From Ruminiclostridium papyrosolvens DSM 2782 (GTDB taxonomy: Bacteria > Bacillota > Clostridia > Acetivibrionales > DSM-1351), in assembly GCF_029318685.1 (NCBI RefSeq), contig NZ_CP119677.1, forward strand, positions 2,657,001-2,721,000: a DNA stretch of 64,000 bases, written 5' to 3'. The notes under the pieces were generated by a model. The model worked only from the letters and a program-made list of their open reading frames with translations, did no database searches and had not been told where the DNA came from. Position numbers and translations under genes: made by a program. Below are positions 18,088 through 60,335 of this stretch, piece by piece (positions within the stretch are counted from its first letter, which is position 1; each line of letters starts with the position of its first letter).

Positions 18088-18378
18088 TTATTTGTCGACA
18101 GGAACAAGCAGAGATACATTCTCACTTAAATCACTTGAACTCATGTGATTTATCTTTTTTATCAAATATACCTTCTTTCTGATATCAGTATTACCGCCGT
18201 ACTTGGAGGCTATAGACCATAAAGAATCACCCTCGCCTACCGTAACTGTAATGTACTGCGTATCAGTAAAACCTGCCACTTTGACTGTATAAATAAGAGT
18301 AAATGTAAGAAACAAAGTAAAGAACAAAAAACATAGAAATCTTTTTTTATTTTTCAAAACATATTTCTTTCTCACCAT
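18088..18378 (-). CDS. YneA-like single-pass membrane protein with LysM domain
   Basis: A 96-aa protein: a short basic N-terminus, one transmembrane helix (about 15-36, FLCFLFFTLFLTFTLIYTV) and a C-terminal LysM domain (VTVGEGDSLWSIASKYGG). In Bacillus subtilis the SOS-induced division inhibitor YneA has this same layout and is divergent from lexA. The position here is identical, with LexA boxes in the shared region, so a role in halting division during DNA damage is likely by analogy. The start at 18378 has GGGAGGG five bases upstream; the 24 extra upstream codons run through a LexA half-site and are not coding. Confidence 0.75.
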   Translation of the reverse strand: MVRKKYVLKNKKRFLCFLFFTLFLTFTLIYTVKVAGFTDTQYITVTVGEGDSLWSIASKYGGNTDIRKKVYLIKKINHMSSSDLSENVSLLVPVDK

Positions 18379-18397
18379 ATTAACCCTCCCAAGCAAC

Positions 18398-18409
18398 AAA
18401 CATACGTTC
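18398..18409. promoter_or_regulatory. Degenerate LexA box near the yneA-like start
   Basis: AAACATACGTTC matches the Gram-positive box GAACNNNNGTTC at all but the first base. It lies 20 bases upstream of the yneA-like start. Confidence 0.4.
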
Positions 18410-18429
18410 TTTATATTTATTATTTTAAG

Positions 18430-18469: not shown

Positions 18470-18483
18470 CGAACATTAGTTTG
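18470..18483. promoter_or_regulatory. LexA box overlapping the lexA -35
   Basis: CGAACATTAGTTTG fits the consensus CGAACRNRYGTTYG. Its last three bases overlap the lexA -35 hexamer, as expected for autorepression. Confidence 0.75.
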
Positions 18484-18509
18484 ATTTTCTGGTTTTCATG
18501 TGTTATACT
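18481..18509 (+). promoter_or_regulatory. lexA promoter
   Basis: TTGATT (18481-18486) and TATACT (18504-18509) have a 17-base spacer. The promoter at 58136-58164 has the same two hexamers, the same spacing and an overlapping LexA box. Confidence 0.7.
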
Positions 18510-18588: not shown

Positions 18589-19236
18589 ATGGCAAAAAAG
18601 AATTCTAACAAACAACAGGAAATTCTTGATTATGTTTATAAATGTGTTCATGAAAACGGTTATCCGCCTTCTGTAAGGGAAATATGTTCAGCGGTAGGTT
18701 TCAAGTCAACTTCTACAGTACATTCCTATCTGCAAAAGCTTATTGATAGCGGACTTCTTCAAAAGGATCCTACTAAGCCGAGAGCAATCAAAATTTTAAA
18801 TAGAGCAAGTCAGGTTAAAGAAAGCCGCACTAGTAAAGACGGGTATTATACTTCACGAGAAATGGTAGATGTTCCTGTTGTGGGAAGAGTTACAGCAGGC
18901 CAGCCTATCCTTGCCGTTGAAAACATTACTGATACTTTCCCCCTCCCTGTAGATTTCGTACAAAACAGTGATGCATTTATGCTAAGAATTCAAGGTGAGA
19001 GTATGGTAGAAGCAGGAATACTTGACAAGGACTTTGTACTGGTAAGACAGCAATCTTCGGCAAATAATGGTGACATTGTTGTAGCTTTGATTGGTGATGA
19101 GGCCACATGTAAAACCTTTTACCGTGAAAAAGACTATATAAGGCTCCAACCCCAGAACAGCAGTATGGAACCCATCCTTGTAAAAGATGATTTGTCAATT
19201 CTGGGAAAAGTAATTGGTGTCTTCAGACGCATGTAG
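18589..19236 (+). CDS. lexA: SOS repressor LexA
   Basis: A 215-aa repressor. The N-terminal winged helix-turn-helix (about 1-70) contains YPPSVREICSAVGFKSTSTVHSYLQKL. A linker leads to the S24 self-cleavage domain with cleavage site Ala103-Gly104 (VTAGQP), catalytic Ser138 (QGESM) and Lys175 (ATCKTF). RecA filaments trigger its cleavage, which de-represses DNA-repair genes. The start at 18589 has GGGAGG five bases upstream; an in-frame ATG 19 codons earlier lacks a ribosome site. It is autoregulated through the box at 18470 and is divergent from the yneA-like gene. Targets recognisable in this window are itself, yneA-like and the radical-SAM operon at 58.2 kb. Confidence 0.97.
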   Translation: MAKKNSNKQQEILDYVYKCVHENGYPPSVREICSAVGFKSTSTVHSYLQKLIDSGLLQKDPTKPRAIKILNRASQVKESRTSKDGYYTSREMVDVPVVGRVTAGQPILAVENITDTFPLPVDFVQNSDAFMLRIQGESMVEAGILDKDFVLVRQQSSANNGDIVVALIGDEATCKTFYREKDYIRLQPQNSSMEPILVKDDLSILGKVIGVFRRM

Positions 19237-57739: not shown

Positions 57740-58009
57740 TCATATTCTATGCATTGAGTTAAAAATATCTTCGTGCTGAATCTGTATTTTCAGGCACAGT
57801 TCAACACCTTTGGCTTCCAATTTTTCAGAAAGATTATGAAATGGTATGTTACATTTGGATATATCTACAAGCATTATCATAGTAAATACATCCTGCAGAA
57901 TTGTCTGGGATATATCAAGTATATTAACATCACTCTCTGCCAATATGTTGCTTACCGCTGCAATTATTCCAACTTTATCTTTACCGATAACTGTTATTAC
58001 TGCTCTCAC
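57740..58009 (-). CDS. ACT domain protein, UPF0237 family
   Basis: An 89-aa single ACT domain (AVITVIGKDKVGIIAAVSNILAESDVNILDISQTILQDVFTMIMLVD). ACT domains bind amino acids or similar effectors, often as dimers. The start codon is GTG 58009, seven bases after GGAGG. It is the first gene of a two-gene unit with UPF0210. The ligand is unknown. Confidence 0.88.
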   Translation of the reverse strand: MRAVITVIGKDKVGIIAAVSNILAESDVNILDISQTILQDVFTMIMLVDISKCNIPFHNLSEKLEAKGVELCLKIQIQHEDIFNSMHRI

Positions 58010-58124: not shown

Positions 58125-58138
58125 CGAACATACGTTTG
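58125..58138. promoter_or_regulatory. LexA box upstream of the radical-SAM operon
   Basis: CGAACATACGTTTG fits CGAACRNRYGTTYG at every position. It overlaps the -35 hexamer of the promoter at 58136-58164 in the same register as the lexA box at 18470-18483. Confidence 0.8.
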
Positions 58139-58164
58139 ATTCATTGGAAAAAGTATGTTATACT
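58136..58164 (+). promoter_or_regulatory. SOS promoter of the radical-SAM operon
   Basis: TTGATT (58136-58141) and TATACT (58159-58164) are separated by 17 bases. These are the same hexamers and spacing as the lexA promoter. Transcription should start about 55 bases before the coding region. Confidence 0.75.
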
Positions 58165-58225
58165 ATTCTTAATAGATAAATCAGCTTGCTTTTGAGTAAA
58201 TTATTTTTACGAGGAAAATAAATAT

Positions 58226-59611
58226 ATGGACTTGAATGAGAAATTAGGAATATTAGCAGATGCAGCAAAATATGACGTTTCATGCTCATCCAGCGGAGGC
58301 ACAAGAAAAAACAAAAACGGAGTAGGAGACAGTCATGCTTGTGGAATATGCCATACATGGGCAGATGACGGAAGGTGTGTTTCTCTGCTTAAAATTCTAT
58401 TGTCAAATGAATGTATATACGATTGCGTATACTGTATAAACAGGTCTTCAAATGATGTTCCCCGTGCCAGTTTTACCGCAGAGGAAGTTATTGAGCTTAC
58501 CATGAATTTTTATCGAAGAAACTATATAGAAGGACTTTTTTTAAGCTCTGCCGTTCTAAAAAATCCCAGCCATACCATGGAGTTAATGCTTGAAATCGTA
58601 AAAAAGCTCCGAAATGAACATGGCTTTTTTGGTTATATACACATCAAAGCAATTCCCGGGGCCGATGAAAGGCTTATAAACGAAGCCGGAATGTACGTTG
58701 ACAGGATGAGCGTAAACATAGAATTGCCGTCTGACAAAGGCCTTGAAGTACTTGCTCCTCAAAAACCAAAAAGAGCTTTACTCAAACCCATGCATCAGAT
58801 AAGCAACAAAATAATTGAAAACAAAGAAAATAAGAGATTATTTAAGAAGGGTGATTCATTTGTTCCGGCTGGACAAAGCACCCAACTTATAGTGGGAGCA
58901 ACACCAGATAAGGATTTAAGCATTCTAAAGCTCTCAGAAGCCTTGTACGGCAATTTTAACCTCAAGAGAGTTTATTACTCGGCTTTTGTCCCAACGGTCA
59001 CAGATCCAAGGCTGCCGGCTCTTATCAAGCCTCCTCTTCTACGCGAACACAGACTGTATCAGGCGGACTGGCTTTTGAGGTTCTACGGTTTTGAGGCTGA
59101 TGAATTACTAAGTAAAAGCAATCCCAATTTTAATCCCGAGCTTGACCCTAAAGCTGACTGGGCTATGAGAAATCTGCATATGTTTCCTATAGAAGTAAAT
59201 TCTGCAGAATATGAATTACTTTTGAGAGTACCGGGTATAGGTGTTAAATCGGCACAGAGGATTATTACCGCCAGAAGAGTGGGAAGACTGACTTTTGACA
59301 ACTTGAAAAAAATCGGAGTAGTCTTGAAACGTGCAGGCCACTTTTTAACCTGTCAGGGGAAGACTTATGACAGTTACAGCTCAAACGAAGCTATTGTAAA
59401 AGAGTCCTTGATAAGTGCCAACCTTCAGCCTAAAAGTAAAAAGTCTGTTTTAGGGCAGATGTCCTTATTCTCACTTGTAAATGATAGCGGAACTGATGAA
59501 AACATCTCAGAGTTTCTTCTAACAGACTCTCCTTCAAATAACCGACAATGGCTGAGCTATTACAATCAACCGCAAGACGGGAGGCTTTTGCTAAGTGATA
59601 TACATTTATGA
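58226..59611 (+). CDS. Radical-SAM / helix-hairpin-helix putative DNA modification or repair protein
   Basis: A 461-aa protein of the family annotated as putative DNA modification/repair radical SAM protein (TIGR03916). Radical-SAM cysteines are Cys63, Cys67 and Cys70 in CIYDCVYC. Three upstream cysteines (39, 42, 51) may hold a second metal centre. The central part is a TIM-barrel with FVPAGQSTQLIVGATPDKD. A helix-hairpin-helix domain follows near 325-375 (LLRVPGIGVKSAQRIITARRVGRLTFDNLKKIGV), suited to bind DNA. The chemistry is not established. A perfect LexA box in its promoter places it in the SOS response. It overlaps the next gene by 17 bases. Confidence 0.88.
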   Translation: MDLNEKLGILADAAKYDVSCSSSGGTRKNKNGVGDSHACGICHTWADDGRCVSLLKILLSNECIYDCVYCINRSSNDVPRASFTAEEVIELTMNFYRRNYIEGLFLSSAVLKNPSHTMELMLEIVKKLRNEHGFFGYIHIKAIPGADERLINEAGMYVDRMSVNIELPSDKGLEVLAPQKPKRALLKPMHQISNKIIENKENKRLFKKGDSFVPAGQSTQLIVGATPDKDLSILKLSEALYGNFNLKRVYYSAFVPTVTDPRLPALIKPPLLREHRLYQADWLLRFYGFEADELLSKSNPNFNPELDPKADWAMRNLHMFPIEVNSAEYELLLRVPGIGVKSAQRIITARRVGRLTFDNLKKIGVVLKRAGHFLTCQGKTYDSYSSNEAIVKESLISANLQPKSKKSVLGQMSLFSLVNDSGTDENISEFLLTDSPSNNRQWLSYYNQPQDGRLLLSDIHL

Positions 59612-60335
59612 TGGAACATGGGACTGCTTTTTAACAGCAGTTCATCATTATTATTATGATAAGCAGGATGTTTCAAATATAGAATCAAGCCTTTGCTATA
59701 TACCAAATCTTATTGACGAATACAGATTTATAACTTCCGATATTATAAAGGCTAAATCAGTAGAAGAAGCAATACTTCATAAGATATCTGCAGAAAGTCT
59801 TGAAAATCTTCAAAAATGTTTCTTTTCGGAAATTGAAGGGCGTGAAATGTGGATTTTAAAATATATCCGTCTGGGTTTTAAAATCGGTTCACGCATAGAC
59901 AGTATGCTGGGAGACAAAACCGTCTTGGATGTATTGATTCCTGCCAGAAAAGTAGGAATGGAGTGTCATAGAATGCTTGGATTGCTTCGTTTTGAGCTTT
60001 TGGATGGCGGTATTTATTATGCAAAAATCCAACCGGACCATAATATAATTTCTTTTATATCTCCCCACTTTAAAAACCGTTTTGCAGACCAGAACTGGAT
60101 AATACACGATACGACACGCAAAATTGCTTCTTTATATAATACAAAAAAAATGCTTCTATCCTATATGGATTTGTCCAATATCCCCGAGCTCCATGCAGAT
60201 GAGCTCAGATTTCAGGCTCTATGGAAAAATTATTATAAGCATATAGCAATTAAAAATAGAATAAATCCAAAACTTCAAAAGAATTTCATGCCTAAGCGAT
60301 ATTGGAAGAACCTTACAGAGAAGAAGTCTGATTAA
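59595..60335 (+). CDS. TIGR03915/DUF4130-type putative DNA repair protein
   Basis: A 246-aa partner of the radical-SAM protein. It opens with IYIYDGTWDCFLTAVHHYYY, the usual family start, and ends with FMPKRYWKNLTE. The family (TIGR03915, DUF4130) is nearly always next to the radical-SAM gene, and in some species is fused to a uracil-DNA-glycosylase domain. No such domain is present here. The activity is unknown. The start is GTG 59595, ten bases after GGAGG, within the end of the upstream gene; the overlap shows coupled translation. Confidence 0.85.
   Translation: MIYIYDGTWDCFLTAVHHYYYDKQDVSNIESSLCYIPNLIDEYRFITSDIIKAKSVEEAILHKISAESLENLQKCFFSEIEGREMWILKYIRLGFKIGSRIDSMLGDKTVLDVLIPARKVGMECHRMLGLLRFELLDGGIYYAKIQPDHNIISFISPHFKNRFADQNWIIHDTTRKIASLYNTKKMLLSYMDLSNIPELHADELRFQALWKNYYKHIAIKNRINPKLQKNFMPKRYWKNLTEKKSD

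Follow-up and report, generated by a model that had tools for sequence, protein, structure and literature searches.

The radical S-adenosylmethionine (radical-SAM) protein family TIGR03916 and the family TIGR03915/DUF4130 are known as a pair from NCBIfam, where TIGR03916 carries the label ‘DNA modification/repair’ and for which NCBI gives no reaction. We here analyzed one such gene pair, together with the LexA box that precedes it, in a stretch of 64 000 nucleotides (nt) from Ruminiclostridium papyrosolvens DSM 2782 (contig NZ_CP119677.1, positions 2,657,001 to 2,721,000 of the forward strand), hereafter called the window. For comparison with earlier descriptions, we equate COG4277 with TIGR03916. 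SOS control of this family is already known in kind from other phyla, with the accessible part of one study predicting SOS control of a two-gene COG1573–COG4277 system in Bacteroidetes and citing Verrucomicrobia and Alphaproteobacteria (PMC8565304). As far as described there, that operon shares with the present locus the radical-SAM family, an adjoining partner and a predicted control of LexA type, whereas the operator is CTAA-N5-TTAG in Bacteroidetes as compared to CGAAC-N4-GTTYG in Clostridia, and the Clostridia partner looks unfused to a uracil-DNA glycosylase (UDG). In the passages available from other reports, DUF4130 is described as an enzyme with a predicted part in mutagenesis, linked both to UDGs and to SplB-like radical SAM proteins (PMC3765255), ‘a radical SAM protein’ is placed in the Gram-positive core SOS regulon (PMC7739468), a ‘Radical SAM protein’, vnz_31145, is listed in the Streptomyces LexA regulon (PMC9380542), and splB is the subject of a further paper (PMC3323433). 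The proteins of the second and third of these reports, for which the passages name no family, possibly overlap with the family studied here. The main text of a Clostridium difficile LexA study (PMC4234289) contains neither ‘radical’ nor ‘modification’ nor ‘uracil’, and among open-licence full texts we found no printed Clostridia case of the SOS-controlled pair and none naming both ‘UdgX’ and ‘radical SAM’. What the present analysis adds is the conservation of the box throughout Clostridia, the design joining operator and -35 element, the link to lexA, a coupling between an N-terminal motif and DUF4130, and a structural model of DUF4130.

Our main finding is that the pair is very probably under LexA control, as judged from the promoter sequence and its conservation. 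We also consider it rather probable that the pair acts on damaged DNA, with the step from SOS control to repair being a plausible one. At the locus, a radical-SAM protein of 461 amino acids (58226–59611, plus strand) scored 647 bits against a TIGR03916 cut-off of 343.5 and had the CX3CX2C motif of the family. Its partner of 246 amino acids, beginning with GTG (59595–60335, plus strand), adjoins it and scored 262.5 bits against a TIGR03915/DUF4130 cut-off of 112.25. The locus is thereby a plain member of the NCBIfam pair, with both proteins well above the curated cut-offs. The original prediction, made from the sequence alone, had described a radical-SAM protein with a helix-hairpin-helix (HhH) domain and a TIGR03915-type partner starting inside its gene, and this was borne out by the family scores and by a 17-nt overlap between the two frames. 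Pfam matches of the radical-SAM protein were Radical_SAM and HHH_3, the latter (residues 322–353, encoded at 59189–59284, plus strand) being marginal at 27.5 bits against a cut-off of 27. The sole family matches of the partner were TIGR03915/DUF4130, and the TIGR03914 domain was not matched in it.

The operator before the pair, CGAACATACGTTTG (58125–58138, plus strand), shares the TTG of its right half-site with the -35 hexamer TTGATT (58136–58141, plus strand), which is followed after 17 nt by the -10 hexamer TATACT (58159–58164, plus strand). From this layout, binding of LexA would cover the -35 element of the pair promoter. The lexA gene of the same window (open reading frame, ORF, at 18589–19236, plus strand; TIGR00498 at 233.5 bits, match range G000:C1:2675601-2676233) has its operator CGAACATTAGTTTG (18470–18483), the -35 hexamer TTGATT (18481–18486), a 17-nt spacer and the -10 hexamer TATACT (18504–18509) in the same register on the plus strand, and the same 14 letters stand before lexA in all 11 genus genomes searched. 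A check against the sequence confirmed the positions and spacings first given for the box and the two hexamers of the pair, as well as the common register with lexA. The promoter of the pair had also been called a copy of the lexA promoter, of which the shared architecture and register stood, whereas a recent copy did not. In the genome studied, the 17-nt spacers of the two promoters agree at 7 of 17 bases, and the value is 3–10 of 17 across seven comparable genus genomes (the comparison leaving out G001, G004, G008 and G010, where a further-upstream lexA box was picked), and promoter duplication from lexA was rejected on account of this unlikeness. Exact CGAACNNNNGTTYG sites occur only twice in the window, as the pair box and the lexA box. 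With one mismatch allowed there are six sites, a number reached by 7 of 100 shuffles, and the box count of the 64-kb window alone is hence not significant; it is the register and the conservation that carry the case.

For conservation we used a class-wide sample of 391 Clostridia genomes, of which 147 held a radical-SAM gene over the TIGR03916 cut-off. The class-wide list and the genus together gave 141 loci, with below-cut-off relatives excluded and one genome (G210) contributing two loci; two loci were dropped for having less than 150 nt upstream, and the remaining 139 were scored for the best match to GAACNNNNGTTC within -200 to +15. At most one mismatch was found in 117 of these loci (21 exact), two mismatches in 16 and three in 6. 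With at most one mismatch, Markov shuffles gave 5.8 of 139, and a window placed inside the gene gave 14 of 139. Counted by family, using codes entered by hand, 35 of 40 families had the box. Lack of such conservation had been named beforehand as the outcome that would speak against SOS control, and that outcome did not occur. Five of the six lowest of 106 listed places, all six lying outside the 139 loci, likewise had a box with at most one mismatch. Among 60 named loci from outside Bacteroidota the box was present in 43 (24 exact); as a control, windows taken upstream of nearby genes on these stretches had it in 17 of 246 (1 exact). Within the genus, the radical-SAM gene was found in 11 of 11 genomes (in one of them in two pieces), and ten had a box within one mismatch of CGAACNNNNGTTCG, the eleventh having AGAACATATGTTTG. 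The Bacteroidetes LexA motif CTAA-N5-TTAG was seen upstream of 9 of 20 Bacteroidota homologues (a count without shuffle control), which suggests an independent recruitment to the SOS response.

The commonest operator among the Clostridia loci was CGAACATATGTTTG. Its right half was GTTTG in 70 of the 117 boxed loci, thus giving the TTG of a -35 element, and in 49 of these 70 a TATAAT-like hexamer (5/6 or better) was placed exactly 17 nt past the overlapped -35, with the next spacing reaching 8. The operator probably departs from a perfect palindrome because one half-site doubles as a promoter element.

Presence of the box was furthermore tied to presence of lexA. Of 115 near-complete genomes having lexA over the cut-off, 100 had a box with at most one mismatch, as compared to 1 of 7 near-complete genomes lacking such a lexA (Fisher p = 8e-5, a value that takes no account of kinship); when incomplete genomes were included, the box was present in 111 of 127 lexA-positive and 6 of 12 lexA-negative genomes. 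Status of lexA and completeness were entered by hand, with either no match or a match below the cut-off (G080, G295) taken as lexA-negative. The sole lexA-negative near-complete genome with a box, G106, possibly has its lexA missing from the assembly. All six loci with three mismatches, belonging to four families, came from genomes that had no lexA match (four) or only one below the cut-off (two). The box thus seems to be retained only in the presence of LexA, the pair also in its absence. With an operator located in its promoter, conserved along with the gene and tied to lexA, the pair has what is expected of a LexA regulon member. Upstream of three loci of one family (L147, L163 and L164 of f36) we noted sites such as TAAACGTATGTTTA and AAAACATAAGTTTA; they hint at drift of the LexA motif in this family, of which part of the members gave no match to lexA.

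The two genes were closely linked, with the partner standing beside the radical-SAM gene in 134 of 141 Clostridia loci, mostly overlapping it or within a few tens of bases. Of the seven exceptions, two (G079, G218) have contigs ending just past the radical-SAM gene with no partner seen, and five (G200, G326, G156, G038, G070) carry DUF4130 elsewhere in the genome. Two sets of observations weigh against SOS control of the pair as a fixed rule. Genomes lacking lexA can hold the pair with no box before it. In G200, G326 and G156, all of one genus (L302–L304), DUF4130 is set apart and no convincing box precedes it, the radical-SAM gene having retained the box at its separate place in these genomes. 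Searching 400 nt upstream of these split DUF4130 genes, we found no match within one mismatch for L302 and L304, and for L303 one-mismatch matches at -138, inside an apparent upstream gene, and at -261; the gene before the split DUF4130 in these three genomes is, by eye, presumably hslO. In G038 and G070, DUF4130 lies about 4.3 kb downstream and one-mismatch matches occur only beyond -300, such matches being placed at -303 for L305 and at -303 and -373 for L306. The split DUF4130 genes speak against strict co-control, and taken together with the pair lacking a box in lexA-less genomes they imply that SOS control is not strictly required.

In the radical-SAM protein, the cluster motif CX3CX2C (C63, C67 and C70; codons at 58412–58435, plus strand), which belongs to the Pfam Radical_SAM match, is preceded by an N-terminal motif formed by C20, the adjacent C42 and H43, and C51 (codons at 58283–58378, plus strand). 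All of these seven residues had a conservation of 1.00 among 140 Clostridia sequences, and the same six cysteines and H43 were invariant in 74 sequences from several phyla, in a mixed-phyla alignment where the identity of the protein was 52–65% to most relatives and 84% to one near relative. Within the N-terminal motif, 53 of the 140 sequences deviate from AAK, the SAK and GAK variants keeping the same cysteines, and in the divergent paired members L318 and L319, which lie outside both sets, the first cysteine is shifted by one residue. Long N-terminal extensions in L215 and L228 read, by eye, like spurious open frame and were rejected as such.

Solitary relatives scoring below the cut-off look like separate subfamilies. 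In eight that were read (L322–L325, L327, L328, L330 and L331), the N-terminal motif was absent in five and rewired to CGC...TC in three, the latter from one genus. TIGR03915 was absent from 8 of 8 genomes holding only solitary relatives, one of these genomes being G058, the relative of which has two stops and is outside the eight sequences read. A further genome, G092, holds both kinds, i.e. a solitary relative and a canonical gene with DUF4130 adjoining. The N-terminal motif and DUF4130 hence seem to come and go together, suggesting that the motif may form a second metal site tied to a DUF4130-dependent reaction. LexA-like boxes were present at three of the eight solitary relatives (L327, L330, L331).

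Turning to the partner, E123, R132, F133, F159, R162, D172, R222, N224 and E242 were invariant in DUF4130, and H125 and H158 nearly so. Its predicted structure resembles a degenerate RecJ/NrnA/Cdc45 (DHH-type) protein, and the 50 listed structure matches of the model were all ones that we recognise as DHH superfamily. The arrangement may, by prediction, be alike, whereas a relation in sequence was undetectable; in a profile test against DHH/DHHA1 the DUF4130 gene was not among the PF02272 hits of its own genome, and hhalign against RecJ/NrnA gave a probability of 0.1–0.2. At the sequence level, the solved structures found for the radical-SAM protein matched it over short stretches only, in the radical-SAM core and in HhH motifs; for DUF4130, nothing came below an E value of 0.2.

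From the comparative evidence as given above and below, i.e. the operator, its register and conservation, the link to lexA, the pairing, the invariant residues and fusions to UdgX, we infer how repression, induction, DNA binding, the N-terminal metal site and a grip on single strands might work together. LexA bound to the box would cover the -35 and block the promoter, RecA-triggered cleavage of LexA would open it, and translation of both proteins would be coupled through the 17-nt overlap. DUF4130 would then take hold of single-stranded DNA, or of an end, close to a lesion, with the radical-SAM subunit binding DNA through its HhH motif and its [4Fe-4S] cluster and SAM abstracting a hydrogen from the damaged base or deoxyribose. 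The reaction that depends on DUF4130 would further require a second metal site, located at the N terminus and made up of C20, C42, H43 and C51. UdgX (TIGR03914), a uracil-DNA glycosylase that becomes covalently attached to abasic sites, is carried by the DUF4130 subunit of some Alphaproteobacteria and would there act ahead of the pair as an additional module. As to whether the pair is an enzyme of two subunits, repressed by LexA and induced by damage, that processes a lesion located most likely in single-stranded or gapped DNA, the arguments for and against seem to us evenly poised. A mechanism at single strands or gaps in which DUF4130 acts as a RecJ-like grip falls somewhat short of an even chance. 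As a more far-reaching proposal, which we put forward as speculation that may well fail, DUF4130 would be a stripped-down protein of RecJ/Cdc45 type that, in the course of the SOS response, places its radical-SAM partner, having two metal centres, at the single-stranded gaps of stalled forks. There the pair would take away or revert damage to a base or sugar, or a crosslink to protein, through radical chemistry not known in DNA repair, with the UdgX fusions capturing one class of substrate. Given that SOS control is conserved, with an operator fused to the -35, the function of the pair can be put to the test, and the DUF4130 model together with the N-terminal cysteine coupling points to which proteins and residues matter together.

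A different account would have the pair as a base-excision module for uracil, the abasic site or the covalent adduct, with UdgX as an ancestral or optional first step, which is close to the view of the group describing the Bacteroidetes SOS network but which we find unlikely. UdgX removes uracil and then bonds covalently to the abasic site, as stated in the accessible part of PMC10359453, and in Rhizobium (L296) and Thioclava (L297) the radical-SAM gene is followed by one encoding TIGR03915 fused to TIGR03914, both over the cut-off, with the Rhizobium fusion aligning to solved UdgX structures and having the GEQPG and KRRIH motifs intact. The Caulobacter genome used as a control gave matches to TIGR03916, TIGR03915 and TIGR03914. 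However, UdgX is absent at the present locus, and the genome has only two UDG-like hits to TIGR03914, both located elsewhere and below the UdgX cut-off. The partner frames seen in the Clostridia loci, moreover, span at most 335 amino acids between stops, too short for a UDG fusion as compared to about 480 for the known fusions; among the named loci there is one frame of 433 amino acids (L242). The radical-SAM protein was 52–53% identical to those of Rhizobium and Thioclava with fused partners, which is like its identity to most relatives, and the radical-SAM reaction therefore need not depend on UdgX.

Spore photoproduct lyase (SPL, PF20903) has the CX3CX2C motif in common with the present protein and uses a hydrogen-donor cysteine. 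That the pair should directly reverse UV photoproducts in the way of SPL, being ‘SplB-like radical SAM photolyases’, nonetheless appears improbable, as the radical-SAM protein has, past C70, no invariant cysteine as a candidate for such a donor, and a separate SPL (418.7 bits) is encoded in the same genome. Membership of the SPL family was in addition rejected, since the protein matched no SPL family profile and since hhalign against the SPL of its own genome aligned only 20 columns around CX3CX2C with a probability of 1.1. What would fit photoproduct reversal is the link of DUF4130 to SplB-like radical SAM proteins, as given in the accessible part of PMC3765255, and the photolyase gene found just downstream at one locus (Heliobacterium, L171).

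A damage-induced DNA modification, installing a mark on base or backbone rather than repairing, is also an account to which we give little credence. It would agree with the NCBIfam name ‘DNA modification/repair’, and the N-terminal cysteine trio before the radical-SAM motif is reminiscent of sulfur-inserting radical-SAM enzymes, but SOS control, the company of recA, lexA, a polymerase and uvrA, and the UdgX fusion fit repair better. Among the neighbours in 82 loci, DUF4130 alone recurred widely, being present in 68 with the next cluster in no more than 7, and a modification partner may yet occur among the smaller clusters. Finally, it is hardly believable that the box stands there by chance or acts on nothing but the divergent gene at 57740–58009. 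It does sit between two divergent genes, but the promoter points to the pair, the box recurs with the pair in 35 of 40 families, and genomes without lexA mostly lack it.

In the whole genome, 22 sites were within one mismatch of CGAACNNNNGTTCG, as compared to 123 for the same pattern read backwards, and the operator pattern thus looks depleted. Eight of the 22 stand before genes, with one each at recA, lexA, the pair and uvrA, two at a Y-family polymerase, and one in each of two copies of a stretch that looks mobile; twelve are inside ORFs, and the remaining two are intergenic (893725) or near a gene start (570260). Its promoter being one of few under a strict box, the pair belongs to a small core set. 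The radical-SAM gene is also widespread, being over the cut-off in 147 of 391 Clostridia genomes and occurring in several other phyla. As for lexA itself, a second LexA-like site (18397–18410, minus strand) was noted between lexA and a divergent LysM-domain ORF (18088–18378, minus strand), which has the look of a YneA-type SOS cell-division inhibitor, and further sites with one or two mismatches were seen upstream of lexA in 10 of 11 genus genomes. The two mobile-looking copies, L023 (G000:C1:1982082-1984082) and L024 (2044853-2046853), are alike as far as printed and have the box CGAACATGTGTTTG between an ORF of 96 amino acids and one that by eye is integrase-like; neither L023 ORF had an NCBIfam match.

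The radical-SAM family was found in 10 of 50,697 phage records and in 158 of 72,556 plasmid records, with five plasmid stretches read further. Two loci were on viral contigs, with one protein being 45% identical over residues 1–415 and the other partial. Some further genes were noted close to the pair in other genomes. In one locus of the named set, L210 (5520-6328), two ORFs having, by eye, the look of an AbiE-type toxin–antitoxin are placed between the radical-SAM gene and DUF4130. Six Lachnospiraceae loci (L176, L178, L193, L199, L212 and L244) have a gene for a protein of 806–834 amino acids located 1.3–1.5 kb downstream of the radical-SAM gene, identified by Pfam as a DEAD_2/Helicase_C_2 (Rad3/DinG-like) helicase in L176 and L244, the two that were run. 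This helicase gene looks like a separate unit, because another short gene intervenes in L176, the one locus read. In Heliobacterium chlorum, the place after the radical-SAM gene where DUF4130 would be expected is taken by a gene for a DNA photolyase (L171:5622-7022).

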